A stretch of DNA of 64,000 bases, from the NCBI GenBank assembly GCA_017451645.1, contig JAFTNZ010000021.1, positions 181,715 to 245,714 of the forward strand, read 5' to 3'. Below, piece after piece: positions 137 through 63,667 of this stretch. Origin of the DNA: Bacteroidaceae bacterium. GTDB taxonomy: Bacteria > Bacteroidota > Bacteroidia > Bacteroidales > Bacteroidaceae. The position numbers and the translations under genes were made by a program. The notes under the pieces were generated by a model. That model saw only the letters and a list, made by a program, of their open reading frames with translations. It ran no database searches and was not told the origin of the DNA. Numbering within the stretch: the stretch's first letter is position 1; the number at the start of each line of letters is the position of its first letter.

Positions 137-715
137 TTAAATTGGAGTATATACTACGGCCAAAATCTTGGCGGCTTCTCCTTGATAACCATGCAAGTGG
201 TGGGGTACGATAGAGTCATAGTAAATGGTGTCGCCAGTCTTGATTACATACTTGTTTTTACCGTGGCATACTTCGATGGCACCCTCCATAACATAGACAA
301 ACTCTTCCCCTTCGTGAGAAGAGAGTTCATACTTATTCTCATCTGTAGCTTCAATGTCTATGATGAACGGTTCCATATGTCGGTCTGCTTTTGACTTCGA
401 CAAAGAATGGTAACGCATATGGGTACGGGCGTCTAAAGCGTTGTTAGAGAAACTGATGGTTGTGTCTGTCTCTTCTTGTTTGCGGCATACTACAGCACCG
501 GTCTCGTCCTGATCGTCTAAGAATGTACCCAAACGTACACCCAAAGCACGGGCTATCTTGATAAGTGGAGCCAATGAAGGTATGTCTATGTTATTTTCGA
601 TACGTGTAATTTGTTCTTCGGCAAGACCCGACCGTTCGGCTAATTCGGAGATGCTGATTTCACGGGTTTCTCGAAGTGATTTAATCTTTTCACCTACAAT
701 CTTTGTACTGTCCAT
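137..715 (-). CDS. XRE-family transcriptional regulator with C-terminal cupin
   Basis: 192 residues. Residues about 5-65 form an XRE/Cro helix-turn-helix (ISELAERSGLAEEQITRIE, then the second helix pair ending in GVRLGTFL). Residues about 115-190 are a small cupin barrel (HEGEEFVYVMEGAIEV, GDTIYYDSIVPHHLHG) that probably binds a small effector or metal. Such proteins are cytoplasmic one-component regulators, often of a neighbouring acyl-CoA or amine gene, here likely the AMP-binding gene just downstream. The gene is divergent from sufS. A minus-strand -7 box (TACCTTTG, plus-strand 785-792) lies about 70 bases upstream of the ATG. The target is inferred from position only. Confidence 0.9.
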   Translation of the reverse strand: MDSTKIVGEKIKSLRETREISISELAERSGLAEEQITRIENNIDIPSLAPLIKIARALGVRLGTFLDDQDETGAVVCRKQEETDTTISFSNNALDARTHMRYHSLSKSKADRHMEPFIIDIEATDENKYELSSHEGEEFVYVMEGAIEVCHGKNKYVIKTGDTIYYDSIVPHHLHGYQGEAAKILAVVYTPI

Positions 716-875
716 CTTTTCTTATATTCTTATGTGTGATTATTGTTTTTGTTATTTCCTGAACCTTTTTTGTGTATAGGGGGTCAAAGGTAAGTAAAAG
801 TATCCAATTGGGCGAATATTTTAGTGGAAAAGTAAAAAGAACAGGTCAGAATGACGGGCATTTCGGTAAAAATTG

Positions 876-883
876 TATCTTTG
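876..883 (+). promoter_or_regulatory. -7 box of the sufS promoter
   Basis: TATCTTTG matches the Bacteroidetes -7 consensus TAnnTTTG and lies 20 bases before the sufS ATG at 904. No clean TTTG is seen at the -33 spacing. Its position rules out the longer reading frame that opens upstream at 772. Confidence 0.55.
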
Positions 884-903
884 TGCCATCTAAATCGACA
901 AAT

Positions 904-2118
904 ATGTACGATATATATAAGATTCGCGAAGATTTTCCCATCTTGGGGCGTGAGGTGTATGGTAAACCGTTAGTCTATTTGGACAATGGAGCTACTACAC
1001 AGAAACCACGTGTGGTAGTGGATGCGATGGTGGATGAATATTATAGTGTGAATGCCAATGTGCATCGGGGGGTACACTTTCTTTCCCAACAGGCCACAGA
1101 ATTGCATGAGTCGAGTCGCGAGACGGTGCGCCGGTTCATCAATGCCCGTTCGGCCAACGAGGTGATTTTTACCCGAGGTACAACGGAGAGTATCAATTTG
1201 TTGGCTTCTTCGTTTGGTGAAGAGTTTATGTGCGAGGGTGATGAGGTGATAATCTCCACGATGGAGCATCATAGCAATATTGTGCCTTGGCAGTTGCTGG
1301 CAGCCCGAAAAGGAATTGCTATCAAGATTATCCCCATGAATGACAAAGGGGAATTACTGTTGGATGAGTATGAAGAACTTTTCAGCGAACGGACAAAGTT
1401 AGTCAGCGTGACCCATGTGAGCAATGTTTTGGGGACGGTGAATCCGGTGAAACAGATAATCTCTGTGGCTCACGCTCATGGGGTACCTGTTCTTGTGGAC
1501 GGGGCTCAGGGAGTTCCTCATGTGGCAGTGGATGTGCAGGATTTGGGCGCAGATTTCTATGCCTTTAGTGGACACAAAGTCTATGGGCCTACGGGTGTGG
1601 GAGTCTTGTATGGCAAAGAAGAGTGGCTCGACCGTCTGCCGCCTTATCAGGGGGGAGGAGAGATGATTCAGACCGTCACTTTCGAGAAAACGACCTTCAA
1701 CGAACTGCCTTTCAAATTCGAAGCCGGTACCCCCGATTATATTGCTACCACCGCTTTGGCGCGGGCATTGGATTATGTGACTGCTCTTGGTATGGACAAT
1801 ATTGCCGTTCATGAACACGACCTTACACAATATGCCATGAATCGCTTGCGTGAGATTCCAGGTATGCGTCTGATTGGTGAAGCTGCCGAAAAGAGCGGTG
1901 TCGTCTCTTTCCTTGTGGGCGACATCCATCATTTTGATATGGGCACTTTGCTCGACCGTCTTGGTATTGCTGTGCGCACCGGACATCATTGTGCACAGCC
2001 CCTGATGCAACGTCTTGGCATTGAAGGCACAGTCCGTGCCTCCTTCTGTCTTTACAATACCCGGGAGGAAGTGGATGCTTTAGTTGCTGGAGTGGAAAGG
2101 GTAAGCCGGATGTTTTGA
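904..2118 (+). CDS. sufS: Cysteine desulfurase SufS
   Basis: 404 residues, the usual length for SufS. A PLP-dependent group II cysteine desulfurase, cytoplasmic, that takes sulfur from cysteine for Fe-S cluster assembly. The PLP lysine is K225 in the motif FSGHKVYGPTGVG, and the persulfide cysteine is C363 in RTGHHCAQPLM, almost the same numbering as the E. coli enzyme. Other family motifs: LDNGATTQKP near the start, EHHSNIVPWQ, and VDGAQGVPH. The start at 904 is chosen because a -7 box ends at 883 and the protein then begins as family members do. Other suf genes are not next to it here, so it appears as a single gene. Confidence 0.95.
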   Translation: MYDIYKIREDFPILGREVYGKPLVYLDNGATTQKPRVVVDAMVDEYYSVNANVHRGVHFLSQQATELHESSRETVRRFINARSANEVIFTRGTTESINLLASSFGEEFMCEGDEVIISTMEHHSNIVPWQLLAARKGIAIKIIPMNDKGELLLDEYEELFSERTKLVSVTHVSNVLGTVNPVKQIISVAHAHGVPVLVDGAQGVPHVAVDVQDLGADFYAFSGHKVYGPTGVGVLYGKEEWLDRLPPYQGGGEMIQTVTFEKTTFNELPFKFEAGTPDYIATTALARALDYVTALGMDNIAVHEHDLTQYAMNRLREIPGMRLIGEAAEKSGVVSFLVGDIHHFDMGTLLDRLGIAVRTGHHCAQPLMQRLGIEGTVRASFCLYNTREEVDALVAGVERVSRMF

Positions 2119-2231
2119 TTTGAAATGATATACTCTGCCATATAGATGTTAAGATTAAGATTAAAAGTTGATTTGCTTGTATGCAAAGTTAATAAGACTT
2201 GCTGAAAAATCAAAATTGCTTTGCATGAAAC

Positions 2232-2317
2232 TTTAATCATCGTCGATGTTTATATAATCATCGACGATGACTATGTGATTATCGACGATGTTTATATAGT
2301 TATCGTCGATGATTAAA
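2232..2317. repeat. 86-bp near-perfect palindrome built of four ATCGWCGATG units
   Basis: Four copies of a 13-base core (ATCATCGTCGATG, ATCATCGACGATG, ATTATCGACGATG, then a GTTATCGTCGATGATT copy) are spaced 21-22 bases apart with AT-rich spacers (TTTATATA, ACTATGTG, TTTATATA). Each core is itself an imperfect palindrome and the whole block reads almost the same on both strands, centred near 2274. It lies downstream of sufS and of the convergent thioredoxin-family gene. Confidence 0.75.
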
Positions 2318-2336
2318 CTTTTCTCTTTAGTCATAT

Positions 2337-2393
2337 AAAAAAAAGCAAGAGACAAACCGATTTTAGAGTGCGGCAAATCGGATTTATCTCTTG
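2337..2393 (-). terminator. Intrinsic terminator of the 2420-3940 gene
   Basis: On the minus strand the arms CAAGAGA and TCTCTTG enclose a second pair around AAATCGG and CCGATTT, followed by eight T residues (A run at 2337-2344 on the plus strand). It lies directly after the stop of the minus-strand gene. Confidence 0.75.
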
Positions 2394-2419
2394 GCTGTTA
2401 TGGGAAACGGTTCACCTGA

Positions 2420-3940
2420 TTACTCAGCAGACTTTACCTTCACCCCAATCATGCGCCAGCAATCGTTCGGTTTGTTCTCCTCTTCGTAGTAGCTGAACGA
2501 GGCTGCATTGGCCGGTAGGGCAGGGAAGTGAAGGGTAAATTCCATGACATTGCTTTCGGGTGTGTAGCATCTTTTGTTGAGTGTGATGTTGGATGCCGAG
2601 CGGATGGGCAGTTTCTCATTGCCGTCGGTGATGAGGTGCGACTCGTCACTGATGCGGAACCATTGGCTGGAGGGATAGAACACACGGAAGGTGACGGCCG
2701 TCTCCTTGTCTGTCAGTTCCACACGGCGGATGTACATCGTGCTGATATGCTCTTCGGCCACCGTGGGATAGTCGATGATGCGCTTGTCTCCTTCGGTGCG
2801 GTAAGTGGGTTGCTTGCCGGCCTTTTCCATATTCAGCAGAACGAACGGTTTTAAGACACCCTTTCCGTAGCCACCTTTGTTTGCTATCACCTTTCCTTCG
2901 GGTGAAACAAGGAAGTAATCGGGAATGCCCTGCACACCGAAGCGGGCAAAGATGCCGTTGTCCTTCTGTAGGTCGTTCCAGTTGTGCCACGTGATGTTGT
3001 GCTTGGCCGACGCTTTCTTCCAATGCTTTTCGCCATCCTGACTGATGCTGACCACCTCCAATGAGTCTGCCATCTGTTCGGAGAGTTCCTTCAGTTCTGG
3101 AAAGCTCATGATGCAAGGGCCACATCCGCTGCTCCAGAAGTCGAGCAAGAGATATTTCCCCCTTAACTCCTGCAGGTGGTGACTGTTACCCAACGTGTCC
3201 TTCAGTTCGAGGTTAGGGACCATGTCGCCCACCCTCATCATTTGGGGATACAGTTTGTTCATGATGCGTCTTCCCCGATACGATGTTCTTTGCTCCTCGC
3301 TCATGCGTTGGGCCAGTTCCTTTCCTTTGGCCAACAGTGTGGTGTCTTTCGATACCGCCAGATAATAGAGATGGTTCATCCAAGCCTCGTCCACAGGCAA
3401 TGTCTCCAGCAGGGCGATGTCTTTCCGTGGAATGGCCATACACAACAGTGAGTCCGCTTGCCGATAATACTTCCCGTCGCCTGTCCGATAATATTCCGTG
3501 TAGGCGTGTGTAAATTCGCTCAGCTCCTTGTGGGCATTGTCCCGAAATTTGTTTTCCGTCTTTTGGGCAGGCACATTGCTCTCGATTTTCCATGCCGAAT
3601 AGTCCATCCCGTCGCCTGTAATCTTGATACGTGCCCCGGGCATTACCCACAAGGTGTGTTGGGTAAAGAATCCCGTTCCGGCATCCATGAGGTGCCCCGG
3701 GTTCACTCCACCATCCTCCGAAACATCCTCAATACGGAACTTTCCGCCTAACACCGTATCTCCATTCAGCGTGGAGAGTTGTGCCCCCACATCCTCCAAC
3801 AGGTTCAGGTACATGCTGTCCGGCACATTGGCCAGTTCGCCTTCAATCACGATTGTCTCTCTCTGTGGTGCATTAGTGCACGCCATCAGGCTCACGGCGG
3901 CCATCATCAGTGCTGCCATCAGGAAACCTTTCTTTCTCAT
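2420..3940 (-). CDS. TlpA/DUF4369-type thioredoxin-fold lipoprotein
   Basis: 506 residues. The signal peptide ends in a lipobox (SLMAC, Cys near 21), so it should be a lipid-anchored envelope protein. Residues about 27-110 resemble the DUF4369 beta domain that precedes thioredoxin domains in Bacteroidetes. A TlpA-like thioredoxin domain lies at about 235-375 with the redox pair C273-G-P-C276 in FWSSGCGPC and the cis-Pro region GIPDYFLVSPEGKV. The C-terminal 120 residues look like a separate beta domain. Probable role: thiol-disulfide exchange in the periplasm, substrate unknown. Its promoter and leader are duplicated upstream of the permease at 4256-6592. Confidence 0.85.
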   Translation of the reverse strand: MRKKGFLMAALMMAAVSLMACTNAPQRETIVIEGELANVPDSMYLNLLEDVGAQLSTLNGDTVLGGKFRIEDVSEDGGVNPGHLMDAGTGFFTQHTLWVMPGARIKITGDGMDYSAWKIESNVPAQKTENKFRDNAHKELSEFTHAYTEYYRTGDGKYYRQADSLLCMAIPRKDIALLETLPVDEAWMNHLYYLAVSKDTTLLAKGKELAQRMSEEQRTSYRGRRIMNKLYPQMMRVGDMVPNLELKDTLGNSHHLQELRGKYLLLDFWSSGCGPCIMSFPELKELSEQMADSLEVVSISQDGEKHWKKASAKHNITWHNWNDLQKDNGIFARFGVQGIPDYFLVSPEGKVIANKGGYGKGVLKPFVLLNMEKAGKQPTYRTEGDKRIIDYPTVAEEHISTMYIRRVELTDKETAVTFRVFYPSSQWFRISDESHLITDGNEKLPIRSASNITLNKRCYTPESNVMEFTLHFPALPANAASFSYYEEENKPNDCWRMIGVKVKSAE

Positions 3941-3953
3941 AATTTCTATATCT

Positions 3954-3999
3954 TTGTTTGTCTTACTTTTCCTGGTACTCTTCTTTGTGGCAAAAATAG
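3954..3999 (-). repeat. 46-bp promoter/leader repeat, copy 1
   Basis: A 46-base stretch identical to 6654-6699. On the minus strand it starts with the -7 box TATTTTTG and continues through the first part of the 5' untranslated region (GCCACAAAGAAGAG...). The flanks differ on both sides, so the identity ends sharply. Confidence 0.9.
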
Positions 4000-4022
4000 C
4001 TTTATTCTTCTTTTATTCCAAA
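3991..4022 (-). promoter_or_regulatory. Promoter of the 2420-3940 lipoprotein gene
   Basis: Minus strand: TTTG at 4022-4019, a 20-base spacer, then TATTTTTG at 3998-3991. This is a full match to the Bacteroidetes housekeeping promoter. The transcript would start near 3984, about 44 bases before the ATG. The rest of the gap up to 4255 has no gene; a hairpin with 9-bp arms (AGTTGACGG at 4206-4214, CCGTCAACT at 4233-4241) lies just past the stop of the permease gene and has no T tract. Confidence 0.75.
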
Positions 4023-4255
4023 TTTATTGCCATATTTTTGGATTATACCATCTGTTTGCCTCCTTTCTTCTCATAGTTTTTCTTTGTGTCTAATTTATCT
4101 CACATTTCTTTCCTTCCTCATGATATGCAGGAACAGTATCGGGCAATTATCGCAGATAAACTTGCTGTGCTACGATGATGATTCTGATTAAGTTGATAAG
4201 GATTCAGTTGACGGGGAATAGTCCGCATGATTCCGTCAACTCGTTGACTGAAGAC

Positions 4256-6592
4256 TCACCCCTTACAAACCTCATCCGCCGGATGGGCTGTAGCCGTCTT
4301 CCATACGCGCCAGCCGATGCAGAGGGCGACGAGCAAGGCGACACTAACGAAGATGGCAGGGCAGAGCCACAGGGGAATCTCCACCTGATGAATGTATCCC
4401 TCCAACCATGGTTTGACACAGACGTAGGCAATGGGGAAGGCTACTACAGCCGCTGCTAAGAGCACCACCACTTGCTCAGTGAAGAAGAGTCGCAGAATGT
4501 CGCCCACTTTGGCACCGAACACCTTGCGTACGGCTATCTCCTTGCGCCGCTGTTCGCAACTGATGGTTATGAGTGAATACACCCCGAACAGGGCTATCAG
4601 GATGCAGACGGCCGTCATCACGTGGAACAGATTCAGCAAAGTTTCCTCGGAATGGAGCAGGCGGTTGAAATCTTCATTAATATTCTCGGTGTACCAGCCC
4701 TCATAATCCCTGTCATTGAATCGGTTCTTGACCGAATCGCGTAGGGCTTTCCACGAACCGGGGCGATAGCTGAAACTGACATGTGACTTCTCCAATTCTT
4801 TCAATTTTCTATCCGACTTGGGAATATAGAGCAACGGCTCCTGTGGCACAATGAGCGACTTGGCACTGACGTTACGCACCACCCCCTTGATGTGCAGCCG
4901 CAGATTATGTATAAAGGTATCCACCGGATGTGTCAGGTTCAGGCTTTTCACTGCTGCCTCGTTGGCTAAGGCTACATCCTTTTCATGGTTTTCCATCCAC
5001 TGCCCTTCCAACAGTTCCAATCCCCAAAAGTCGGTTTCCTCACGCGTAATCTCCTTCGTGCCGATTCTTACAATGTTTCCCTTTTCATCGCGAATTATAC
5101 GCTTAGTGCTAATGTATGCAATATTGTCGCATCCGGCCTTAACCTCTTCCACATCGGGATGATTGCGCAAATAATGCGCCAACGCTTCCGTAAATTCGGG
5201 ATTGCTGTAACTGTAAATGATTGCACGGTTTTCGTAGTTGAAGCCAGCTGTGGTTTCAGAACGCAAGTAACGGAGTTGCAGGATGATGACCGATGTGAAG
5301 AACACGAGTCCCATGCCTACCGCCAATTGCACCCATTGGCTCAAGGGACGGAACAGATTACGATGTACGGTGACCATGCCTTTGTGCAATGTCTCGTTCA
5401 GCGCCTGTCGCTGCATCCACCAGGTGACACCCACCAACAGGGGCAAGGTGCCCAATGCCACGACAAGCATGTAGATTCCCATCTCAGTAAGGAAGAAAGA
5501 GGCTTCTTCCTCGATATGGGCAATACCTTTGAACTCCGGGAGAGTCAGGTTCACAAACAAAATTCCCAAAATGCAGGATGCCAGAAGCAACAGGAGGAAC
5601 TCGGTAGAGAGCAATGCTAACAATTGTTTGCGCGATGAACCACAAACCAGCCGTAAGGCCAGTTCGCGTGCTCGCATACGGATGCGGATAACGTATAGGG
5701 ACAGATAATTGAACACGGCACATATCACAACAACCAATCCTAACAGCGCAAAGATGCGGATGTAGTCAACTTTGACAAGATGACCAAAAAAGTTCGGACA
5801 TTCAGACCGGAAATCCTTGAGTGGGACAACCCGTGATTCCATATTACCACTTAGTCCTATCTTGTTGATAAGGGCCGAAACAGTATCGGCATCGGCTAAG
5901 GCATGAAGGCGCATGACATTGTGATAGTCCATCAGGAGGTTCTCTTTATTCGAAGTCCGTTTTGCTATTTCTTCCGATTTGAACGGTATCAGGCAATCAA
6001 AGGGGAAAAAGGTGTGTTTCCCCCAATCCTTCACGACGGCAGCCACCGTGTAGATGCCGTTTTCCCACATTTCACCCCTATAAGTTTGGGGAAGTGCCAA
6101 GTTTATTCCATTGCCGATGCAGTTGGTAGTCCTGAACAGTTTCAATGCCAGTTTGTCCGTAATGACCACACCTGTCCCATTAGGATGCATCAGCGGATAA
6201 CTGCCAGCTATCAATTCAGGTTGGAATATGGGCAGAAACAGCGAGTCCACCACCATAATGTTTGCCGAAACACTGTCATTTACACTTAATGACCTGTGCG
6301 GACTACGGAATATCGTGGCCTGCTCCACTTGTGGCATTTTCTCCATGGCAGTAGAAGCCGCCGAATAGCAAGTTACCGGATAAGTTGTAGCCCAATCATC
6401 GTGGGAACTGATTTGTAAATACAGATTCTCCGCCTCGGGATGAAACGCATCATACGTCGTTTCGTACCTCCACCATAGGTAGGAGAGGGCAAAGCATGTG
6501 AATCCTACGGCCAAGCCGATGAGGCTCAGCAGTGTCTGCAGTTTGTACTTCGTCAGTTGGCTCAGGGCCATGGTCAAATAGTGTAGCGACAT
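4256..6592 (-). CDS. FtsX/MacB-type ABC transporter permease
   Basis: 778 residues with the double architecture of the Bacteroidetes 8-TM permeases: TM1 near 15-38, a periplasmic MacB-like core about 40-280, three TM helices about 290-400, TM5 near 425-445, a second periplasmic core about 450-640, and three C-terminal helices with the FtsX motif EQRRKEIAVRKVFGAKVGDI near 680. The family moves or mechanically gates substrates (lipoproteins, antimicrobials) in the inner membrane using a separate ATPase. No ATPase or membrane fusion gene is adjacent. It sits between two thioredoxin-like exported proteins, which is unusual; a joint role is only inferred. Confidence 0.88.
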   Translation of the reverse strand: MSLHYLTMALSQLTKYKLQTLLSLIGLAVGFTCFALSYLWWRYETTYDAFHPEAENLYLQISSHDDWATTYPVTCYSAASTAMEKMPQVEQATIFRSPHRSLSVNDSVSANIMVVDSLFLPIFQPELIAGSYPLMHPNGTGVVITDKLALKLFRTTNCIGNGINLALPQTYRGEMWENGIYTVAAVVKDWGKHTFFPFDCLIPFKSEEIAKRTSNKENLLMDYHNVMRLHALADADTVSALINKIGLSGNMESRVVPLKDFRSECPNFFGHLVKVDYIRIFALLGLVVVICAVFNYLSLYVIRIRMRARELALRLVCGSSRKQLLALLSTEFLLLLLASCILGILFVNLTLPEFKGIAHIEEEASFFLTEMGIYMLVVALGTLPLLVGVTWWMQRQALNETLHKGMVTVHRNLFRPLSQWVQLAVGMGLVFFTSVIILQLRYLRSETTAGFNYENRAIIYSYSNPEFTEALAHYLRNHPDVEEVKAGCDNIAYISTKRIIRDEKGNIVRIGTKEITREETDFWGLELLEGQWMENHEKDVALANEAAVKSLNLTHPVDTFIHNLRLHIKGVVRNVSAKSLIVPQEPLLYIPKSDRKLKELEKSHVSFSYRPGSWKALRDSVKNRFNDRDYEGWYTENINEDFNRLLHSEETLLNLFHVMTAVCILIALFGVYSLITISCEQRRKEIAVRKVFGAKVGDILRLFFTEQVVVLLAAAVVAFPIAYVCVKPWLEGYIHQVEIPLWLCPAIFVSVALLVALCIGWRVWKTATAHPADEVCKG

Positions 6593-6653
6593 GTCGTCTC
6601 CTTAATTTATAGTTAATGATTTTGTAGTGGAAATACTTTCCTCTTTATGGCTC

Positions 6654-6699
6654 TTGTTTGTCTTACTTTTCCTGGTACTCTTCTTTGTGGCAAAAATAG
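6654..6699 (-). repeat. 46-bp promoter/leader repeat, copy 2
   Basis: Identical to 3954-3999 over 46 bases and placed in the same way, from the -7 box into the 5' leader, upstream of the permease gene. Confidence 0.9.
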
Positions 6700-6721
6700 T
6701 CGTTTCCCATCTCCCCTCCAA
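6691..6721 (-). promoter_or_regulatory. Promoter of the permease gene
   Basis: Minus strand: TTGG (6721-6718), a 19-base spacer, TATTTTTG (6698-6691). A further -7-like box, TACTTTTG at 6811-6804, is followed by the same GCCACAAAGA word as in the duplicated leader and may be a diverged third copy. Confidence 0.65.
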
Positions 6722-6857
6722 GGTAAAGTCAAAAAACGTCTGTTTCCGATGCCAGAATGTCTAATTTTAGACACCTATATATTATATAAGCGTATCTTTG
6801 TGGCAAAAGTAAAGTTTAAATTCTGCTTTTTTTTGAATGGCATTTTGCCGCAACCGA

Positions 6858-8804
6858 TTATTCTAATCTATTTTTCAGTTCTTTCAGTTTCTCGGTAAAT
6901 GTGTTAGTATCGTAGAGGCGGTACTCCAGTCCTTCGCGCACCACGTTACCGTTCTTGTCCAGCGTTTCGTAGTGGGGAATGCCATTGAACTGGAAGAGTT
7001 CCATCAGTTTGTTGTACTCGTCGCGGGTGATGAGGTGGCAGTCCTCCCCGTAGAGGTTCTCCTTCACGTAGTTGTTGTATGCCTCTTCGGTTGACTCAGG
7101 TGCCGCAATGAAGAGGAAATCCACCTCGGGATGGAGTCTGAAGGTCTTGCGCAACTCCTTGGAGTGTTCGATGGCGCTCCGGCAGGGACCGCATCCCATT
7201 CCCCAGAAGTCGATGAGCAGGTATTTCCCCCTGTACTTGTCCGTCATGCGGCGCAGGATACGGGTTGCTTCCGTGTCGGGCAGGCTGTAGGTCAGTGTCT
7301 GCCGTTCCAGCTCCTTGGCATAAAGGCGGTCGAGATTGGCCTGCAAGCCGGGATGTTCCAATGTCTCGCGGCGGAGTTCCACCAGCCTCTTCTGTTCCTC
7401 CTTTTCCTTCCGGAAGTTTTTGAGATTGTTCTCCGTCTTTCTCAGTACGACAATCTTTCCCCATAGCGAGGGGCTGTCTGCTCCTGTCACCTTCATGTCG
7501 TTGGCCAGTATGGTACTGTCTTTGCTTGCTTCATAGTCGGCTTTCACTATGAGGAGCCTGAAGGCTTCGTCCAGCACCGGGGCAAATTCATAGCGGTTCA
7601 GCATGATGCTTATGTTGTTGCTGGTCAGTGAAGAGACATCGTTGTAGGGCAATTCCCTGAAGAATCCCCAATTGGCCGCATCGGTCACATCGGCCAACCT
7701 CTTATAGGCACGGATGCTGTCTTCACCCGTCACTTTTCGGTAGGTTGCAAACCGGGCATCCATGATGTACTCCATAATCCACTGGGCATGGCCCAACTTG
7801 TTCCATACGTGTGCCAAGTGATGCTCCCAAGGGTTGAAGCCGTTGCGCCAGGCTATGTAGTCCACTGTCCGTTCTTTGGCCTTGGACAGTCCCATCAGTT
7901 TTTCCTGCATCTCTGCAAACGACAGCGTCCCCTTGTCTTTTTCATAATTCATGTAGTAATAGTTGCCTATTTTGTCCATACCGCTCATCATCAGCCTTTC
8001 GCAGCGCAGCACCTCTTCATCGGAGCCTTTGTAATCTATCGTCCAGTCCTTGTGTATGTTGACCACGGTGGTGCATCCCGGCACGAAGTAGGCATTGATT
8101 GACTGATAGAGACTTGCTGTTGCTGTGCGGATAGAGAAATAGAGTTCCTTGGGATAGAAATCGACAAACTTGATTTCGAATGTCCCGTCTTCCTGCACAT
8201 CGATGGCTTTGGGTGTGTCCTCGCCTGTCAGTTCGTTCCTCAGATAGAGTTGCATGGTATTGAATCCCATGTCGCGCGAATACCCCTCAATCTGTCCGCG
8301 CAGGCAGACGGTGTCCGTGCGGATGAAGTCTTGTGGCACACCTACCGTATCCACGAAGGCGGGAATGCGGATAGGCTTCTTGGCATCGTGTATGCCCAGA
8401 ATCTGGAAGTCGCCCGACTTCTTGCCCTCTATCAAGTCAAAGAAAGGGGTCTTCTTGGGCAGAGGTTCGAACAGCAGTTTGAAGTCGTTCGCCTCGTTGG
8501 CTGTCTTTGGGAAGAATTGGTCGAACTTCTCGCCGGGGATTCCTTGGCTGCGCATGATGCGGTACTCCTTGCCTTTGTCGTCCACGAGGCAAGTGGCCCG
8601 GTCAAAGCGGATGCCATTGTTCGTGTCGTGCTTGTGGAAAGTGACGATGGTGGCCGTGTCGGTCAGCATTACGTGGGTGATTTCTGCATTGTTGATATTG
8701 CTGTTCAGCCATTGTACATCCTTGAACTGCTTCTTGAAGGCTGATGCCTGACCACCGGCCATGAGCAGCACTGCGGCCAACAAAATAATACTTTTCTTTC
8801 TCAT
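6858..8804 (-). CDS. Exported thioredoxin-fold (TlpA-like) protein
   Basis: 648 residues with a cleavable signal peptide (LLAAVLLMAGGQASAFKK) and no lipobox, so probably periplasmic. Residues 25-260 carry beta-rich sequence with a DUF4369-like part; about 270-490 is helical with coiled-coil character (KEKEEQKRLVELRRETLEH). The C-terminal thioredoxin domain (about 500-648) has C538-G-P-C541 in FWGMGCGPC and the cis-Pro region NGIPHYETLDKNG. It is likely a thiol-disulfide oxidoreductase for envelope proteins. A minus-strand -7 box (TAACTTTG, plus 8837-8844) lies about 35 bases upstream. The substrate is unknown. Confidence 0.82.
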   Translation of the reverse strand: MRKKSIILLAAVLLMAGGQASAFKKQFKDVQWLNSNINNAEITHVMLTDTATIVTFHKHDTNNGIRFDRATCLVDDKGKEYRIMRSQGIPGEKFDQFFPKTANEANDFKLLFEPLPKKTPFFDLIEGKKSGDFQILGIHDAKKPIRIPAFVDTVGVPQDFIRTDTVCLRGQIEGYSRDMGFNTMQLYLRNELTGEDTPKAIDVQEDGTFEIKFVDFYPKELYFSIRTATASLYQSINAYFVPGCTTVVNIHKDWTIDYKGSDEEVLRCERLMMSGMDKIGNYYYMNYEKDKGTLSFAEMQEKLMGLSKAKERTVDYIAWRNGFNPWEHHLAHVWNKLGHAQWIMEYIMDARFATYRKVTGEDSIRAYKRLADVTDAANWGFFRELPYNDVSSLTSNNISIMLNRYEFAPVLDEAFRLLIVKADYEASKDSTILANDMKVTGADSPSLWGKIVVLRKTENNLKNFRKEKEEQKRLVELRRETLEHPGLQANLDRLYAKELERQTLTYSLPDTEATRILRRMTDKYRGKYLLIDFWGMGCGPCRSAIEHSKELRKTFRLHPEVDFLFIAAPESTEEAYNNYVKENLYGEDCHLITRDEYNKLMELFQFNGIPHYETLDKNGNVVREGLEYRLYDTNTFTEKLKELKNRLE

Positions 8805-9003
8805 ATCCTTTTTATACTGTTGTTATTTGGGGCTTCAAAGTTATAAAATTATGCAAGAAGAAAGGGATAAAAATTTATTAATTCGTCTTTCTCGACTTAA
8901 AAGTGTCCAAAAATTAGACACATCTGCAGGATTAGAATGAGATATATTGGATAAGTGACTATACATTTGTCTTGAAAAAATCGTTTTTTTGAGAAAAAGA
9001 ATA

Positions 9004-9011
9004 TACTTTTG
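9004..9011 (+). promoter_or_regulatory. -7 box of the Tat/ferredoxin operon
   Basis: TACTTTTG matches TAnnTTTG. Transcription would start near 9018, so the TTG-initiated frame opening at 9009 cannot be the real start; ATG codons at 9042, 9066 or 9081 remain. Confidence 0.55.
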
Positions 9012-9065
9012 CAAAATGATACCTATTTTGTTGGTATCACCATGTGGAAAACTTGTATTGAAAAA

Positions 9066-10589
9066 ATGAACACAAATACCATGTTGCGAAAAATTAGAGT
9101 AGCCCTTGCCATCATTTTCTATGTAGCCATAACGATGCTGTTTCTGGATTTTACGGGAACGTTGCATGCTTGGTTCGGTTGGATGGCCAAAATCCAGTTC
9201 TTGCCGGCACTGCTTGCCCTGAATGTAGGAGTGGTAGTCATGCTGGTCTTGCTGACAGCATTGTTTGGAAGAGTCTATTGTTCGGTCATCTGTCCATTGG
9301 GCGTGATGCAGGACATCTTTGCCTGGTTGGGAAAGAAGGCCAAGAAGAACCGGTATGCCTACTCGGCCGAGAAGAGGTGGTTGCGCTACATCATGCTGCT
9401 TCTTTTTATCGTGTCGTTGCTCGCAGGTGGAGGCATATTGGCCAAATTGCTGGCCCCCTATAGTGCCTACGGACGTATTGCCCATAGCCTGTTGGCTCCG
9501 CTTTGGCAGTGGGGCAACAATGGATTGGCCTATTTGGCTGAGCGGGCAGACAGCTATGCTTTTTACGGAACAGAGGTATGGATAAGGAGTGCAACGACAT
9601 TCGGAGTCGCTGTGGTTACATTATTAATAATAGGTATATTGGCTTGGCGTGGTGGACGTACATATTGCAACACCATTTGCCCGGTCGGTACGGTATTGGG
9701 CTTCATTGCACGCTTTTCGTGGCTGAAGCCTGTGATTGACACCGGCAAGTGTAATGGATGTGGGCTGTGTGCCCGCAATTGCAAGGCGGCTTGCATCAAT
9801 AGTAAGGAACACCGGATAGACTACAGTCGCTGCGTGGCTTGCATGGACTGTTTGGACAAATGCAAACGCGGGGCCATCAGCTATAGAAGAGCTGTCGTGA
9901 AGAATCACCAACAGCCTGTAGGGGATGGGGCTGCAACCCAAGACTCGTCGCACGTGGGAGATACGTCCCGACGCACCTTTCTGGCGACAACTGCCGTGGC
10001 GACGGCTACAGCAGCCATTAAGGCGCAGGAGATGAAGGTGGATGGCGGACTGGCAACCATCGTGGACAAGGTGGTGCCTGACAGACAAACCCATCTGGTG
10101 CCTCCCGGAGCATGGAGCGCCCGCCATTTTGCCAAACACTGTACAGCCTGCCAGCTTTGTGTGTCGGTGTGCCCCAATGGGGTGCTTGTTCCCTCTACAG
10201 ATTTGACAAGGCTGATGCAGCCCGAGATGAGGTATGAGCGTGGCTATTGCAGGCCGGAATGTACCAAATGTTCGGATGTGTGTCCCACCGGTGCCATCCG
10301 TCCGATCACCCGTGAAGACAAGTCTTCTACCCAAATAGGGCATGCCGTATGGGTGAAGAAGAATTGTATTCCTCTGACTGACGGGCAGCCTTGTGGCAAC
10401 TGTGCCCGCCATTGTCCTACGGGAGCCATACAGATGATTCCTTCGGTGGAGGGTGACAAGCGTTCGCCCAAGATACCGGCCATCAATACAGAGCGGTGTA
10501 TCGGTTGTGGGGCTTGTGAGCATCTCTGTCCGGCCCGTCCCTTCAGTGCCATATATGTAGAGGGACACGAGAGACATCGGGAGATTTAG
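9066..10589 (+). CDS. NapH/NapG-like membrane polyferredoxin with an internal Tat motif
   Basis: 507 residues from ATG 9066 (ATG 9042 also possible). The N-terminal half is NapH-like: about four TM helices with two CxxxCP motifs (YCSVICPLG, YCNTICPVG) and two 4Fe-4S motifs (CNGCGLCARNCKAAC, CVACMDCLDKC). Near residue 300 there is a twin-arginine stretch, SRRTFLATTAVATATAA, followed by an exported-type ferredoxin half with four more Cys clusters (CTACQLCVSVCP, CTKCSDVCP, CGNCARHCP, CIGCGACEHLCP), like NapG. It looks like a natural NapH-NapG fusion carrying electrons from menaquinol to a periplasmic acceptor. The next genes encode a Tat-signal reductase, TatA and TatC, so it heads this operon. 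Confidence 0.85.
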   Translation: MNTNTMLRKIRVALAIIFYVAITMLFLDFTGTLHAWFGWMAKIQFLPALLALNVGVVVMLVLLTALFGRVYCSVICPLGVMQDIFAWLGKKAKKNRYAYSAEKRWLRYIMLLLFIVSLLAGGGILAKLLAPYSAYGRIAHSLLAPLWQWGNNGLAYLAERADSYAFYGTEVWIRSATTFGVAVVTLLIIGILAWRGGRTYCNTICPVGTVLGFIARFSWLKPVIDTGKCNGCGLCARNCKAACINSKEHRIDYSRCVACMDCLDKCKRGAISYRRAVVKNHQQPVGDGAATQDSSHVGDTSRRTFLATTAVATATAAIKAQEMKVDGGLATIVDKVVPDRQTHLVPPGAWSARHFAKHCTACQLCVSVCPNGVLVPSTDLTRLMQPEMRYERGYCRPECTKCSDVCPTGAIRPITREDKSSTQIGHAVWVKKNCIPLTDGQPCGNCARHCPTGAIQMIPSVEGDKRSPKIPAINTERCIGCGACEHLCPARPFSAIYVEGHERHREI

Positions 10590-10639
10590 GAGATGGAACT
10601 GTGGAAATGGAATGAAGAACAAAGTATGGAAATAGAGAT

Positions 10640-11989
10640 ATGAACAGACGCGATTTCTTAAAGATAATGGGATTGGGCACAGCCGCTGGGGCAGCCGCGT
10701 TGTGCGGGTGCAAACCGAAGGTGGAAACTGAGGTGACCGGTAGTGAGTTGGGGCCTGTCCCGACAGACAAGATGACTTGTCGCCGTTTCCCGGGATTGGG
10801 AGACGATAATGTCTCGATATTGGGTTACGGCTGTATGCGTTGGCCTACAATGCCCAATCCGGAAGGAAAGGGCGATATCATCGACCAGGATGCGGTGAAC
10901 GATCTGGTGGACTATGCCCTTGCACATGGGGTCAACTATTTCGATACAGCACCGGTCTATGTACAAGGCAAGTCGGAAAAGGCGACGGGCATCGCCCTTC
11001 AAAGACATCCGCGTGAGTCGTACTACATTGCCACCAAGTTGTCCAACTTCTCCAACTCTTCGCGCGAGAATTCATTGGCCATGTACCGGCGTTCTTTTGA
11101 AGAACTGCAGGTGGAGTATATTGACTATTACCTGTTGCACTCTTTGGGCGGTGGCGGAATGGACAATTTCCGCAAACGGTTTGTGGATAATGGCATGATG
11201 GACTTCCTGATGGAGGAACGCAAGGCCGGACGCATCCGCCGTTTGGGCTTCTCGTTCCATGGATCGCAGGAGGTGTTTGATGAGTTGTTGGCCCTGCACG
11301 ACCAGTATCATTGGGATTTTGTGCAAATACAGCTTAACTACGTGGATTGGCATGGCTCCAATGCCAAAGGTCTTTACGAGTCATTGGAAAAGTACCAGAT
11401 TCCCGGTATCATCATGGAACCGCTGTTGGGAGGCCGTCTCTCCAAATTGCCCGATCACATAGTGAAGCGGTTGAAACAGCAACGTCCCGAAAGCAGTGTC
11501 GCCTCGTGGGCCTTCCGCTTTGCCGGTACGCCGGAACTGATACTGACGGTGCTCAGTGGTATGACCTATATGGAGCATCTGCAGGACAACATACGCACCT
11601 ACTCGCCCCTTGTACCGTTGACGGAAGAGGAGAAAGAATTCCTTTTCGAAACGGGGCGGTTGATCAAACAGTATCCCACCATCCCGTGCAACGATTGCAA
11701 ATACTGTATGCCTTGTCCTTACGGAATTGATATTCCGGCAATTCTGCTGCATTATAACAAGTGTGTGAACGAAGGTAATGTGCCAGAAAGCAGTCAAGAC
11801 CCCAAATATCGCGAAGCAAGGCGTGCTTTCCTTGTGGGCTATGACCGCAGTGTCCCCAAGTTGCGTCAGGCCAGCCACTGTATAGGGTGCAACCAGTGTA
11901 GCAAACACTGTCCGCAGCGCATCAATATACCACGTCAGTTGCATCGCATTGACCGCTTCGTGGAAAGCCTCAAGCAGGATACCCTGTAA
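10640..11989 (+). CDS. Tat-exported aldo/keto reductase with two 4Fe-4S motifs
   Basis: 449 residues. The N-terminus MNRRDFLKIMGLGTAAG is a textbook Tat signal (RRDFLK); LCGC near residue 27 may be a lipobox, making it a Tat lipoprotein. Residues about 50-335 are an aldo/keto reductase barrel (NYFDTAPVYVQGKSEK, SFHGS, IIMEPLLGGRL). The C-terminus holds two ferredoxin motifs, CNDCKYCMPCPYGIDIP and CIGCNQCSKHCPQRINIP, as in the ferredoxin-fused AKR branch. It probably reduces a carbonyl-type substrate in the periplasm with electrons from the upstream polyferredoxin; the substrate is unknown. The gap to the previous gene is 50 bases, and tatA follows. Confidence 0.88.
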   Translation: MNRRDFLKIMGLGTAAGAAALCGCKPKVETEVTGSELGPVPTDKMTCRRFPGLGDDNVSILGYGCMRWPTMPNPEGKGDIIDQDAVNDLVDYALAHGVNYFDTAPVYVQGKSEKATGIALQRHPRESYYIATKLSNFSNSSRENSLAMYRRSFEELQVEYIDYYLLHSLGGGGMDNFRKRFVDNGMMDFLMEERKAGRIRRLGFSFHGSQEVFDELLALHDQYHWDFVQIQLNYVDWHGSNAKGLYESLEKYQIPGIIMEPLLGGRLSKLPDHIVKRLKQQRPESSVASWAFRFAGTPELILTVLSGMTYMEHLQDNIRTYSPLVPLTEEEKEFLFETGRLIKQYPTIPCNDCKYCMPCPYGIDIPAILLHYNKCVNEGNVPESSQDPKYREARRAFLVGYDRSVPKLRQASHCIGCNQCSKHCPQRINIPRQLHRIDRFVESLKQDTL

Positions 11990-12017
11990 AGGCTGTTCGG
12001 AGTCAGTGTATAAGATT

Positions 12018-12046
12018 ATAAATTATAAATCACAAATCATAAATCA
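12018..12046. repeat. Word-type repeat before tatA (AAATTATAAATCACAAATC)
   Basis: The 60 bases before the tatA ATG consist of near-repeats of AAATTATAAATCAC and AAATCATAAATC. This is one of several low-complexity word repeats in intergenic leaders of this window. Confidence 0.5.
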
Positions 12047-12050
12047 AACC

Positions 12051-12206
12051 ATGTTTGGAATAGGATTTCAAGAAATTATCATTATCGCCCTGATTGTTCT
12101 TCTTTTCTTTGGAGGTAAAAAGATACCTGAACTGATGAAAGGTTTGGGTAAAGGAGTGCGTAGCTTCAAAGACGGAATGAACGGGACAGAAAAGGAAGAG
12201 AAATAA
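12051..12206 (+). CDS. tatA: Sec-independent translocase subunit TatA
   Basis: 51 residues, short even for TatA. It has the family layout: an N-terminal TM helix (residues 6-20, FQEIIIIALIVLLFFGGKK), the FGGKKIPELMKGLGKG hinge, an amphipathic helix, and a short charged tail. It forms the inner-membrane pore of the twin-arginine pathway with TatC. The start is the ATG after the word repeat; the longer upstream frame has no TatA character. It ends 4 bases before tatC and follows two genes with Tat motifs, its likely cargo. No TatB is seen, as usual for two-component TatAC systems. Confidence 0.93.
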   Translation: MFGIGFQEIIIIALIVLLFFGGKKIPELMKGLGKGVRSFKDGMNGTEKEEK

Positions 12207-12210
12207 ACTC

Positions 12211-12972
12211 ATGACCTTTTGGGAACATCTTGATGAATTGCGTGGCAGCCTGATAAAGATGGTTGTTGCAGTGGTGGTGTGCGCTGTCATCGCCTTTTTT
12301 TTCAAGGACGAGTTGTTCGATATTATTCTGGCTCCACAGGATAGCGGCTTCATCACCTATCGTTTGTTGGAACAGATTGCTGCCTCTCTGTTTCCTGATG
12401 GATTGTCAGACGTGGGCGCATGGGATGTGCAACTTATCAACATCGGGTTGGCGCGTCAGTTCCTGCTCCATGTGAAGGCTTCAGTCTGTGCCGGTATCTT
12501 GCTCACGTCTCCTTATCTTATATACCTGCTTTTTCATTTCATTTCCCCTGCACTCTATACCCATGAGCGCAAATATGCCATCCGGTTGGTGGTTAGTGGA
12601 TACATCATGTTCATGCTTGGTGTGCTGCTCAGCTATTACCTGATATTCCCGTTGATATTCCGTTTCCTGGGAACCTATCAGGTGAGTGACGTAGTAGCCA
12701 ACACCGTCACCATTGATTCATATATGGAGACACTGATGACCGTAAGCCTCTCTATGGGGATAGTTTTCGAAATACCTGTAATCTGTTGGGTGCTTGGTCG
12801 TATGGGCTTCATCAATGCCGCGTTGATGAGTCATTATCGTCGCCACGTCATTGTAGTGCTACTCATCATTGCAGCCATAATCACTCCCACCTCTGATGTC
12901 TTTACGCTGATGCTTGTCGCACTCCCCATGTGGCTGCTCTATGAGGTCAGCATCCTGATTGTAAGAAAATAA
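12211..12972 (+). CDS. tatC: Sec-independent translocase subunit TatC
   Basis: 253 residues with six predicted TM helices. The N-terminus TFWEHLDELRGSLIK is the TatC signature region (HLxELRxRL) that binds twin-arginine signals; the periplasmic loop region LSYYLIFPLIFRF and the TM5-6 segment IITPTSDVFTLMLVALPMW are also typical. It is the receptor of the Tat translocase in the inner membrane. tatA is 4 bases upstream; the operon seems to end here. Confidence 0.94.
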   Translation: MTFWEHLDELRGSLIKMVVAVVVCAVIAFFFKDELFDIILAPQDSGFITYRLLEQIAASLFPDGLSDVGAWDVQLINIGLARQFLLHVKASVCAGILLTSPYLIYLLFHFISPALYTHERKYAIRLVVSGYIMFMLGVLLSYYLIFPLIFRFLGTYQVSDVVANTVTIDSYMETLMTVSLSMGIVFEIPVICWVLGRMGFINAALMSHYRRHVIVVLLIIAAIITPTSDVFTLMLVALPMWLLYEVSILIVRK

Positions 12973-51062: not shown

Positions 51063-51079
51063 CTTCTCCTTGTTTCTTG

Positions 51080-51153
51080 CGCTTCAGGATGGGCTTGAAC
51101 CAACGACCCCCTGATTAACAGTCAGGTGCTCTAACCAACTGAGCTACTGAAGC
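51080..51153 (-). tRNA. tRNA-Asn (GTT), copy 1
   Basis: 74 nt with discriminator G. Acceptor GCTTCAG/CTGAAGC, D-loop TAGCTCAGTTGGTTAGAGCA, anticodon stem CCTGA-CTGTTAA-TCAGG with anticodon GTT, and T-arm GTTCAAGCC. CCA is not encoded. Confidence 0.96.
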
Positions 51154-51185
51154 AGTGATTTTTTTATGAGAACGCTTTGCTTTTG

Positions 51186-51259
51186 CGCTTCAGGATGGGC
51201 TTGAACCAACGACCCCCTGATTAACAGTCAGGTGCTCTAACCAACTGAGCTACTGAAGC
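51186..51259 (-). tRNA. tRNA-Asn (GTT), copy 2
   Basis: Identical in sequence to the copy 106 bases away; the identity extends a few bases into the flanks, so it is a tandem duplication. The promoter is upstream at 51292-51323. Confidence 0.96.
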
Positions 51260-52893: not shown

Positions 52894-52904
52894 TCTATTT
52901 TCGG

Positions 52905-52979
52905 TGGGCGCTGAGGGATTCGAACCCCCGACCCTCTGCTTGTAAGGCAGATGCTCTGAACCAGCTGAGCTAAGCGCCC
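52905..52979 (-). tRNA. tRNA-Val (TAC), copy 1
   Basis: 75 nt with discriminator A. Acceptor GGGCGCT/AGCGCCC, D-arm TAGCTCAGCTGGTTCAGAGC, anticodon stem CTGCC-TTACAA-GCAG with anticodon TAC, and T-arm GGGTTCGAATCCC. CCA is not encoded. Confidence 0.96.
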
Positions 52980-53022
52980 GAAAGGAACTTGCTTTTTATC
53001 GAAAGAGCCGGATGATTTTTTG

Positions 53023-53097
53023 TGGGCGCTGAGGGATTCGAACCCCCGACCCTCTGCTTGTAAGGCAGATGCTCTGAACCAGCTGAGCTAAGCGCCC
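53023..53097 (-). tRNA. tRNA-Val (TAC), copy 2
   Basis: Identical to copy 1, 118 bases upstream in the transcript. Both are driven by the promoter at 53124-53155. Confidence 0.96.
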
Positions 53098-63484: not shown

Positions 63485-63489
63485 CATCA

Positions 63490-63552
63490 AGTTTTTCATG
63501 GTATTAGATTTAAGGTTAATAAAGGTTGGGTCAAGGCGTTGACCCTTTTTTT
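63490..63552 (+). ncRNA. Candidate small RNA or attenuator leader (about 63 nt)
   Basis: From the predicted start near 63490 the transcript ends in a strong intrinsic terminator, GGGTCA-AGGCGT-TGACCC plus seven T residues (63528-63552). A 14-codon frame (MVLDLRLIKVGSRR) opens at 63499 and its TGA lies within the terminator stem, so a translated leader peptide with attenuation is also possible. No longer gene is present. Confidence 0.5.
63528..63552 (+). terminator. Terminator of the small RNA candidate
   Basis: GGGTCA/TGACCC stem with T7. Confidence 0.85.
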
Positions 63553-63667
63553 ATATCTGTACGTTTCGTACCCTGTCATTTTTCATTCCGCTAAACAGCT
63601 GATAATCCGTAATCGGTTGCTAATTAGAATGTTGAAGAATATTATAGTACGTAATAATCTCTAAAAT

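Follow-up and report, generated by a model that had tools for sequence, protein, structure and literature searches.

Two described systems come closest to the locus considered here. One is the polyferredoxin Q1NSB0 of MLMS-1, a NapH-NapG fusion targeted by both the Sec and the twin-arginine translocation (Tat) pathways, the Tat dependence of which was shown with E. coli reporter fusions; the main text of that paper gives an arginine pair (RR), a weakly hydrophobic segment and positive charges after it as the features of the Sec-to-Tat handover (Tooke et al. 2017, PMC5449189). The other is NapGH, described in the same text as a quinol dehydrogenase that runs outward from quinol. The 64,000-nucleotide stretch of Bacteroidaceae DNA analysed here (the window, in which all positions are counted) carries at 9066-12972 of the forward strand four intact, tightly packed genes, in the order polyferredoxin, aldo/keto reductase (AKR), TatA and TatC, separated by 50, 61 and 4 bases respectively. 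We propose that this operon encodes a quinol-linked periplasmic reductase along with the Tat exporter needed by both of its redox proteins, a reading to which we give a probability of about 0.55. The gene architecture and the predicted Tat export of the polyferredoxin and the AKR are well supported by the sequence features listed below, and the components individually are known kinds of protein; the direction of electron flow, the AKR substrate and a link to an importer are points that we infer.

9066..10589, + strand: polyferredoxin, a NapH-like membrane part fused to a NapG-like part (family models)
9750..9863, + strand: cysteine-rich 4Fe-4S region of the polyferredoxin before the Tat segment, residues 229-266, predicted to be cytoplasmic by reference to the published polyferredoxin family
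9963..10016, + strand: putative internal Tat signal of the polyferredoxin, SRRTFL plus a weakly hydrophobic segment (PF10518 23.4 bits, TIGR01409 22.1 bits, both above cut-off)
10140..10529, + strand: C-terminal 4Fe-4S motifs of the polyferredoxin, residues 359-488, predicted to be periplasmic
10637..10699, + strand: N-terminal Tat signal of the AKR, NRRDFLK, the match starting one codon ahead of the ATG (PF10518 27.6 bits, TIGR01409 20.5 bits)
10640..11989, + strand: AKR with Tat signal and C-terminal ferredoxin domain (family models, AlphaFold2, Foldseek)
10709..10711, + strand: lipobox cysteine of the AKR, Cys24 (cysteine in 76/79 aligned rows)
11687..11716, + strand: first 4Fe-4S motif of the AKR, C350-C359 (sequence motif, alignment)
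11879..11911, + strand: second 4Fe-4S motif of the AKR, C414-C424 (sequence motif, alignment)
12051..12206, + strand: TatA, 51 amino acids (TIGR01411 above cut-off)
12211..12972, + strand: TatC, 253 amino acids (TIGR00945 above cut-off)

The layout of four closely spaced genes in one direction thus stands as the original prediction had it, and the identities it gave them are borne out gene by gene. In the polyferredoxin, matches to Fer4 (84.1 bits) and Fer4_5 (58.6 bits), with ferredoxin domains of the NapG/NapF kind and Fer4_5 motifs of the NapH kind, are in keeping with a NapH-like/NapG-like fusion, and the protein scores below the equivalog NCBIfam cut-offs for NapH (83 against 213.05 and 75.3 against 234 bits) and NapG (67 against 269 bits). 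An in-frame ATG at 9081 provides an alternative start that matches the usual MLRKIR start of the relatives. We aligned the window protein with those 69 of 71 open frames that reach 470 residues (70 rows; here and in the AKR alignment below a script chose the frames, and frame errors may account for a few deviant rows). Each of the 29 cysteines in the window protein is retained in at least 69/70 rows, as is the internal arginine pair in nearly all (R302 in 67/70, R303 in 70/70). The segment that follows the pair has a mean hydropathy of 1.85, against 2.34-2.70 for helices 1-4, and is itself followed by at least one lysine or arginine in 70/70 rows and at least two in 65/70. Judged by hydropathy alone, without a topology program, the protein therefore has the four hydrophobic helices, the arginine pair and the fifth segment of low hydrophobicity expected of a dual Sec/Tat protein, as well as the positive charges past that segment, and it is apparently dual targeted. 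Each of the polyferredoxin copies in three other genomes (G101, G286 and G293) has one in-frame stop codon in the matched stretch or frame.

The AKR belongs to its family by its PF00248 score (117.4 bits, cut-off 24), by its D-Y-K-H residues and by its predicted barrel, and its C-terminal portion matches Fer4_9 (29.3 bits, cut-off 27). In an alignment of 79 rows (open frames of at least 430 residues, some loci giving more than one) D102, Y107 and H167 are present in 79/79 rows and K133 in 77/79, these being what we take to be the D-Y-K-H residues of AKRs. The AlphaFold2 model (mean pLDDT 81.3, low in the signal region) is an ordinary AKR barrel by Foldseek. All 50 solved structures listed as matches are AKRs; they run to 258-346 residues, which is too short to hold the whole extra domain, and several are titled as NAD(P) complexes. 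The two 4Fe-4S motifs predicted for the protein are confirmed at C350/353/356/359 and C414/417/420/424, and these eight cysteines are retained in 77-78 of the 79 rows. The RRDFLK signal is likewise real, in that PF10518 finds it at 27.6 bits in a genome search; scanned as a single protein the AKR gives 22.0 bits, marginally below the 22.7 cut-off. With its arginines retained in 79/79 and 78/79 rows and its match to a Tat-signal model, the AKR classes as a Tat substrate, and with a lipobox-like pattern in 73/79 rows, as a putative Tat lipoprotein. Neither this lipobox cysteine nor the internal Tat signal of the polyferredoxin was part of the original prediction. Surface export of lipoproteins in this phylum follows acidic residues after the lipobox cysteine; because two or more such residues directly follow it in just 3 of the 73 lipobox-bearing rows, a periplasmic position of the AKR appears likelier than a surface one.

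To place the module in a wider context we searched 295 Bacteroidales genomes. The AKR was matched at an E-value of 1e-20 in 58 of them, 49 with a close form and nine, set apart here, with a distant form only; the match in one genome (G242) is without the signal region. Among the matches listed, a polyferredoxin of at least 51% identity occurs in exactly the 49 close-AKR genomes, this threshold having been chosen after viewing the list, in which the next match stands at 49% and weaker ones are not included. TatC was found in 246/295 genomes, including 49/49 with a close AKR against 197/246 of the others (p 5.5e-5, the genomes being related and not independent). Across 395 genomes sampled from the phylum, the AKR gave five matches at an E-value of 1e-40, four from Bacteroidales and a fifth, distant one (37%) from outside that order.

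The neighbourhoods were compared in the best 80 of at least 593 relatives, on which all locus counts out of 80 rest; all are Bacteroidales by record title, many from animal guts. The polyferredoxin adjoins the AKR in 75 of these loci, and TatA and TatC together lie within 5 kb of it in 15, with TatA alone in two more (L078 and L082, where no TatC match is in range). Within the same distance are DUF1893 in 29/80, a gene resembling the substrate-binding S-component of energy-coupling factor transporters (ECF-S) in 18/80 and a TonB receptor in 5/80; where at least 4 kb of downstream DNA is available (64 loci), TatC is seen in 14, DUF1893 in 24 and ECF-S in 14. The self-contained four-gene block is hence one arrangement among several, and the conserved unit is polyferredoxin plus AKR (75/80 against 15/80). 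As in the window, no more than 400 bases separate TatA from the AKR ahead of it in 8/15 tat-linked loci; in the other 7/15, DUF1893 and ECF-S lie between AKR and TatA, joined in two by a TonB receptor. The nearest relative (L064, 82% AKR identity) is one of these seven. On a tree of 78 AKRs, built by a quick method (15 tat-linked, 48 not; two members on very long branches, L104 and L114, were kept), the window AKR falls together with three others, L064, L065 and L066, each of them tat-linked. The linkage label requires 10 changes on this tree, at least seven of them by starred branches (shuffled mean 13.6; 7/500 shuffles as low). The linkage of AKR and tat genes is thus somewhat clustered and has been gained or lost several times.

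TatA and TatC both score above their curated-model cut-offs (TIGR01411 63.6 bits, cut-off 53.9; TIGR00945 180.8 bits, cut-off 132.7), as their predicted identities require. The window's own genome (G000; 2.5 Mb in 38 contigs, 72.6% complete) has one TatC and one TatA/B/E match above cut-off, and a PF10518 search of it gives exactly two matches, at the AKR start and at the internal site of the polyferredoxin; TIGR01409 returns the identical two sites. In a chosen set of 80 genomes, false PF10518 matches appear to be rare, since 9/9 genomes without a TatC match have none. The model also undercounts, because 11 of the 48 other close-AKR genomes yield no match at all (range 0 to 9, median 1); the 22 TatC-bearing genomes without a close AKR yield 0 to 12 (median 1.5). 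A plain DNA pattern for RRxFL, used to seek further Tat substrates, showed no excess (405 matches against 561 for a reversed control), and of 30/405 places inspected three have a true arginine pair near a possible start, none of them resembling a Tat signal. The original prediction named many other Tat substrates in the genome as a point against itself; none beyond the operon was found in G000 by the two models, in a genome 72.6% complete and with a model that undercounts. Its interpretation is thus right in part. The idea of a dedicated exporter is a fair, if provisional, reading for G000, where both Tat-signal matches and the single TatA and TatC lie in or belong to the operon, and is wrong for some relatives, with TatA and TatC linked to the AKR in 15/80 loci. 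An AKR lacking Tat genes in most relatives, the other point named by the original prediction, is not what the 49 close-AKR genomes show, all of them having TatC; yet linkage is confined to those 15 loci, and up to nine Tat-signal matches are seen in the genomes of some relatives. In G000 the operon thus appears to supply both a whole Tat system and its two visible clients, of which one is apparently dual Sec/Tat targeted, and it could serve as a small natural test case for the Sec-to-Tat handover.

DUF1893 and ECF-S co-occur with the AKR across the genomes searched. DUF1893 (PF08973, TM1506) was found in 29/295 genomes, 26 of which have a close AKR (p 1.3e-20), and the ECF-S-like protein in 33/295, 22 of them with a close AKR (p 3.7e-12); in both cases the genomes are related and not independent. 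The ECF-S-like copy of L064 (168 residues; model mean pLDDT 85.3 from 14 sequences) has the S-component fold, its first 13 Foldseek matches all being ECF transporter entries (RibU, FolT, ThiT and similar) with probabilities of 0.75-1.00 and TM-scores by query of 0.43-0.65. In two loci (L106 and L120) the genes run polyferredoxin, AKR, DUF1893, TonB receptor, ECF-S, TatA, TatC. Three such TonB receptors were scanned, and the best model was a vitamin B12 receptor for two and a siderophore receptor for one, all far below cut-offs. Two loci (L179 and L182) have TatC with ECF-S and no AKR in the stretch covered.

We also noted parallel modules in 17 further, hand-chosen loci with a polyferredoxin of 37-46% identity; here only the DUF362 and phosphoribosyltransferase proteins of L148 and L144 were scanned with Pfam, the other assignments being by BLAST similarity. 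A DUF362-like gene with an RR motif adjoins the polyferredoxin in 15/17. Five of these 15 have ECF-S (L144, L147, L148, L151 and L153; also L150 by coordinates), three a TonB receptor (L148, L150 and, at 31%, L153) and three a phosphoribosyltransferase gene (L144, L147 and L148), so that L148 combines ECF-S, phosphoribosyltransferase, TonB receptor, DUF362 and polyferredoxin. An AKR of 42 or 39% identity with an RR motif takes the place of DUF362 in L154 and L155, and the latter has at 6144-10715 an AKR and an FMN reductase-like protein, both with RR motifs, and in the same row polyferredoxin and ECF-S. Another locus (L181, from 3702, TatC frame from 6525) reads DUF362, polyferredoxin, TatA, TatC, the window layout with a different RR-motif enzyme. 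If these associations are functional, they would give an ECF S-component and two Pfam families of unknown function, DUF1893 and DUF362, a connection with redox chemistry in the periplasm of gut bacteria.

In the mechanism that we favour, Sec would insert the first four membrane helices of the polyferredoxin and Tat would take over at the internal RR segment, which would place the NapG-like clusters in the periplasm. The AKR would fold with its 4Fe-4S clusters in the cytoplasm, be exported by TatAC and, to judge by its motifs, be anchored as a lipoprotein. Electrons from menaquinol may then pass through the polyferredoxin to the clusters of the AKR, which would hand them to a small periplasmic molecule resembling a carbonyl or quinone. 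A reductive respiratory pathway, as the original prediction supposed, is plausible by homology to NapGH; the importer association seen in a minority of relatives suggests a second possibility, which that prediction did not include. As AKR chemistry is hydride transfer, the AKR would be expected to have a bound NADP or a flavin partner. Glucose-fructose oxidoreductase carries bound NADP through Tat, and the same is possible for this AKR because its conserved residues S205, Q231, S306, G307 and N317 presumably fall at cofactor-contact positions. Since genes for a TonB receptor, ECF-S and DUF1893 accompany the pair in some relatives, the substrate might be what a vitamin-type uptake route carries, or a precursor of it; this is the least certain part of the proposal.

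Several observations weigh against this quinol-linked reductase and its importer connection. Any reductase reading is weakest at the passage from one-electron clusters to a hydride step, and Pfam finds no flavin domain in the polyferredoxin or the AKR, which leaves that step without an explanation. Neither DUF1893 nor ECF-S is matched in G000, so that the importer link breaks down there unless the quarter of the genome that is missing contains these genes; in the relatives it extends to just the 29 and 18 of 80 loci given above, and 11/33 ECF-S genomes are without a close AKR. The Foldseek E-values of the ECF-S-like protein are weak (0.02 or more) and its PF12822 score is below cut-off. Finally, L176 has beside its ECF-S and DUF1893 (frame from 4430) a distant AKR (33%, from 2565) without a Tat motif, which suggests that the importer has no need of a periplasmic AKR. 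Two loci have candidate proteins of another kind close to the module: L120 has at 141-6425 further AKRs and flavodoxin-family proteins with apparent signal peptides, and L126 at 1854-2477 a flavodoxin-family protein with an apparent signal peptide. These could be a source of flavin chemistry.

What the AKR acts upon can be read in several ways. It may simply reduce an abundant external acceptor, a carbonyl, quinone or similar compound, in plain anaerobic respiration, with the importer genes as incidental neighbours. Homology of the polyferredoxin to NapH/NapG, the AKR standing directly ahead of TatA with no importer between in the window and 8/15 tat-linked relatives, and the lack of ECF-S and DUF1893 matches in G000 all agree with this; the strong co-occurrence of the AKR with both importer families across the 295 genomes does not, nor do the several DUF362-type polyferredoxins that also adjoin ECF-S and a TonB receptor, and we consider it quite possible, if short of even odds. 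The same co-occurrence, the S-component fold, the gene order of L106 and L120 and the leaning of two of three TonB receptors to a vitamin B12 model (and of one to a siderophore model), far below cut-offs as these are, would instead suit the salvage of a cofactor or vitamin, in which a precursor enters through the receptor, is reduced in the periplasm by the AKR and polyferredoxin and is then imported by the S-component, with DUF1893 acting on it inside. Given that the importer genes are absent from the G000 matches and linked in a minority of loci, and that a search of the window and 14 loci for riboswitches as a clue to such cargo turned up a single one, for fluoride, which is in L150 and not near the module, we regard salvage as a tentative possibility. 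In its widest form the idea would be that gut Bacteroidales have a modular, Tat-built periplasmic electron chain, in which the partner of the polyferredoxin is an AKR, a DUF362 protein or an FMN reductase-like protein, and that this chain reduces some molecule akin to a vitamin or cofactor on its way from TonB receptor to ECF S-component, an undescribed extracytoplasmic reductive salvage of which the window would be the most compact form, its exporter serving the module alone; in this generality we think it rather doubtful.

Electrons might also flow in reverse, the AKR oxidising a periplasmic alcohol or sugar and the polyferredoxin handing the electrons to menaquinone. Among solved structures, L-galactose dehydrogenases do take the first two places for the AKR profile, but at an identity of just 20-23%, and NapGH runs the other way, so that we find this unlikely. 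A role in envelope repair or redox maintenance is more improbable still: MsrPQ, named in the main text of PMC5449189 as a membrane protein paired with a Tat-exported enzyme and using respiratory-chain electrons, offers a precedent for the design, against which stand the importer association in relatives and the lack of any known repair domain among the Pfam matches.

A Bacteroides-type promoter pattern has seven matches in the window, none of them ahead of the polyferredoxin gene; a sigma-70-type promoter scan found 10 (6.3 in shuffles, standard deviation 3.0), a terminator scan 4 against 4.2, and a repeat search just short, chance-like pairs. A DUF554 gene lies next downstream of TatC, 115 bases away. 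At 63489-63555 (+) there is a match to the Bacteroidetes FopS small RNA family (RF04319, 70.8 bits), and at 51079-51259 and 52903-53097 (-) two tandem tRNA pairs, Asn(gtt) x2 and Val(tac) x2.

The combination of a Tat-lipoprotein AKR-ferredoxin, a dual Sec/Tat polyferredoxin and their own TatAC, with a vitamin-type importer in some relatives, was not found in our literature searches, a weak test of absence given that the spelling of some queries could not match 'aldo/keto'; the sole relevant item, judged by title and abstract, was the polyferredoxin paper (PMC5449189), the main text of which does not contain the word 'aldo'. Going by that text, Q1NSB0 and the window polyferredoxin are alike in the NapH-NapG fusion, in clusters on both sides of the membrane, in the conserved arginine pair before a weakly hydrophobic fifth helix and in the positive charges after it; they differ in that Tat dependence is published for Q1NSB0 and predicted from sequence for the Bacteroidales protein. 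With NapGH the polyferredoxin shares homologous domains and a likely route from quinol to periplasm, whereas it is one fused protein with scores that fall far short of the equivalog cut-offs for NapH and NapG, and no nitrate reductase is among the four genes. Distant Bacteroidales AKRs without a Tat motif share 32-36% identity with the window AKR, mostly across both barrel and ferredoxin motifs (not a Pfam-based assignment); of 11 such distant proteins (L167-L177) nine have no RR motif near the start and two (L168 and L177) do. The DUF362 module is a further parallel, an RR-motif enzyme adjoining a polyferredoxin of 37-46% identity, with TatA and TatC in L181 and with ECF-S and a TonB receptor in others, in which an unrelated enzyme domain, PF04015, replaces the AKR.

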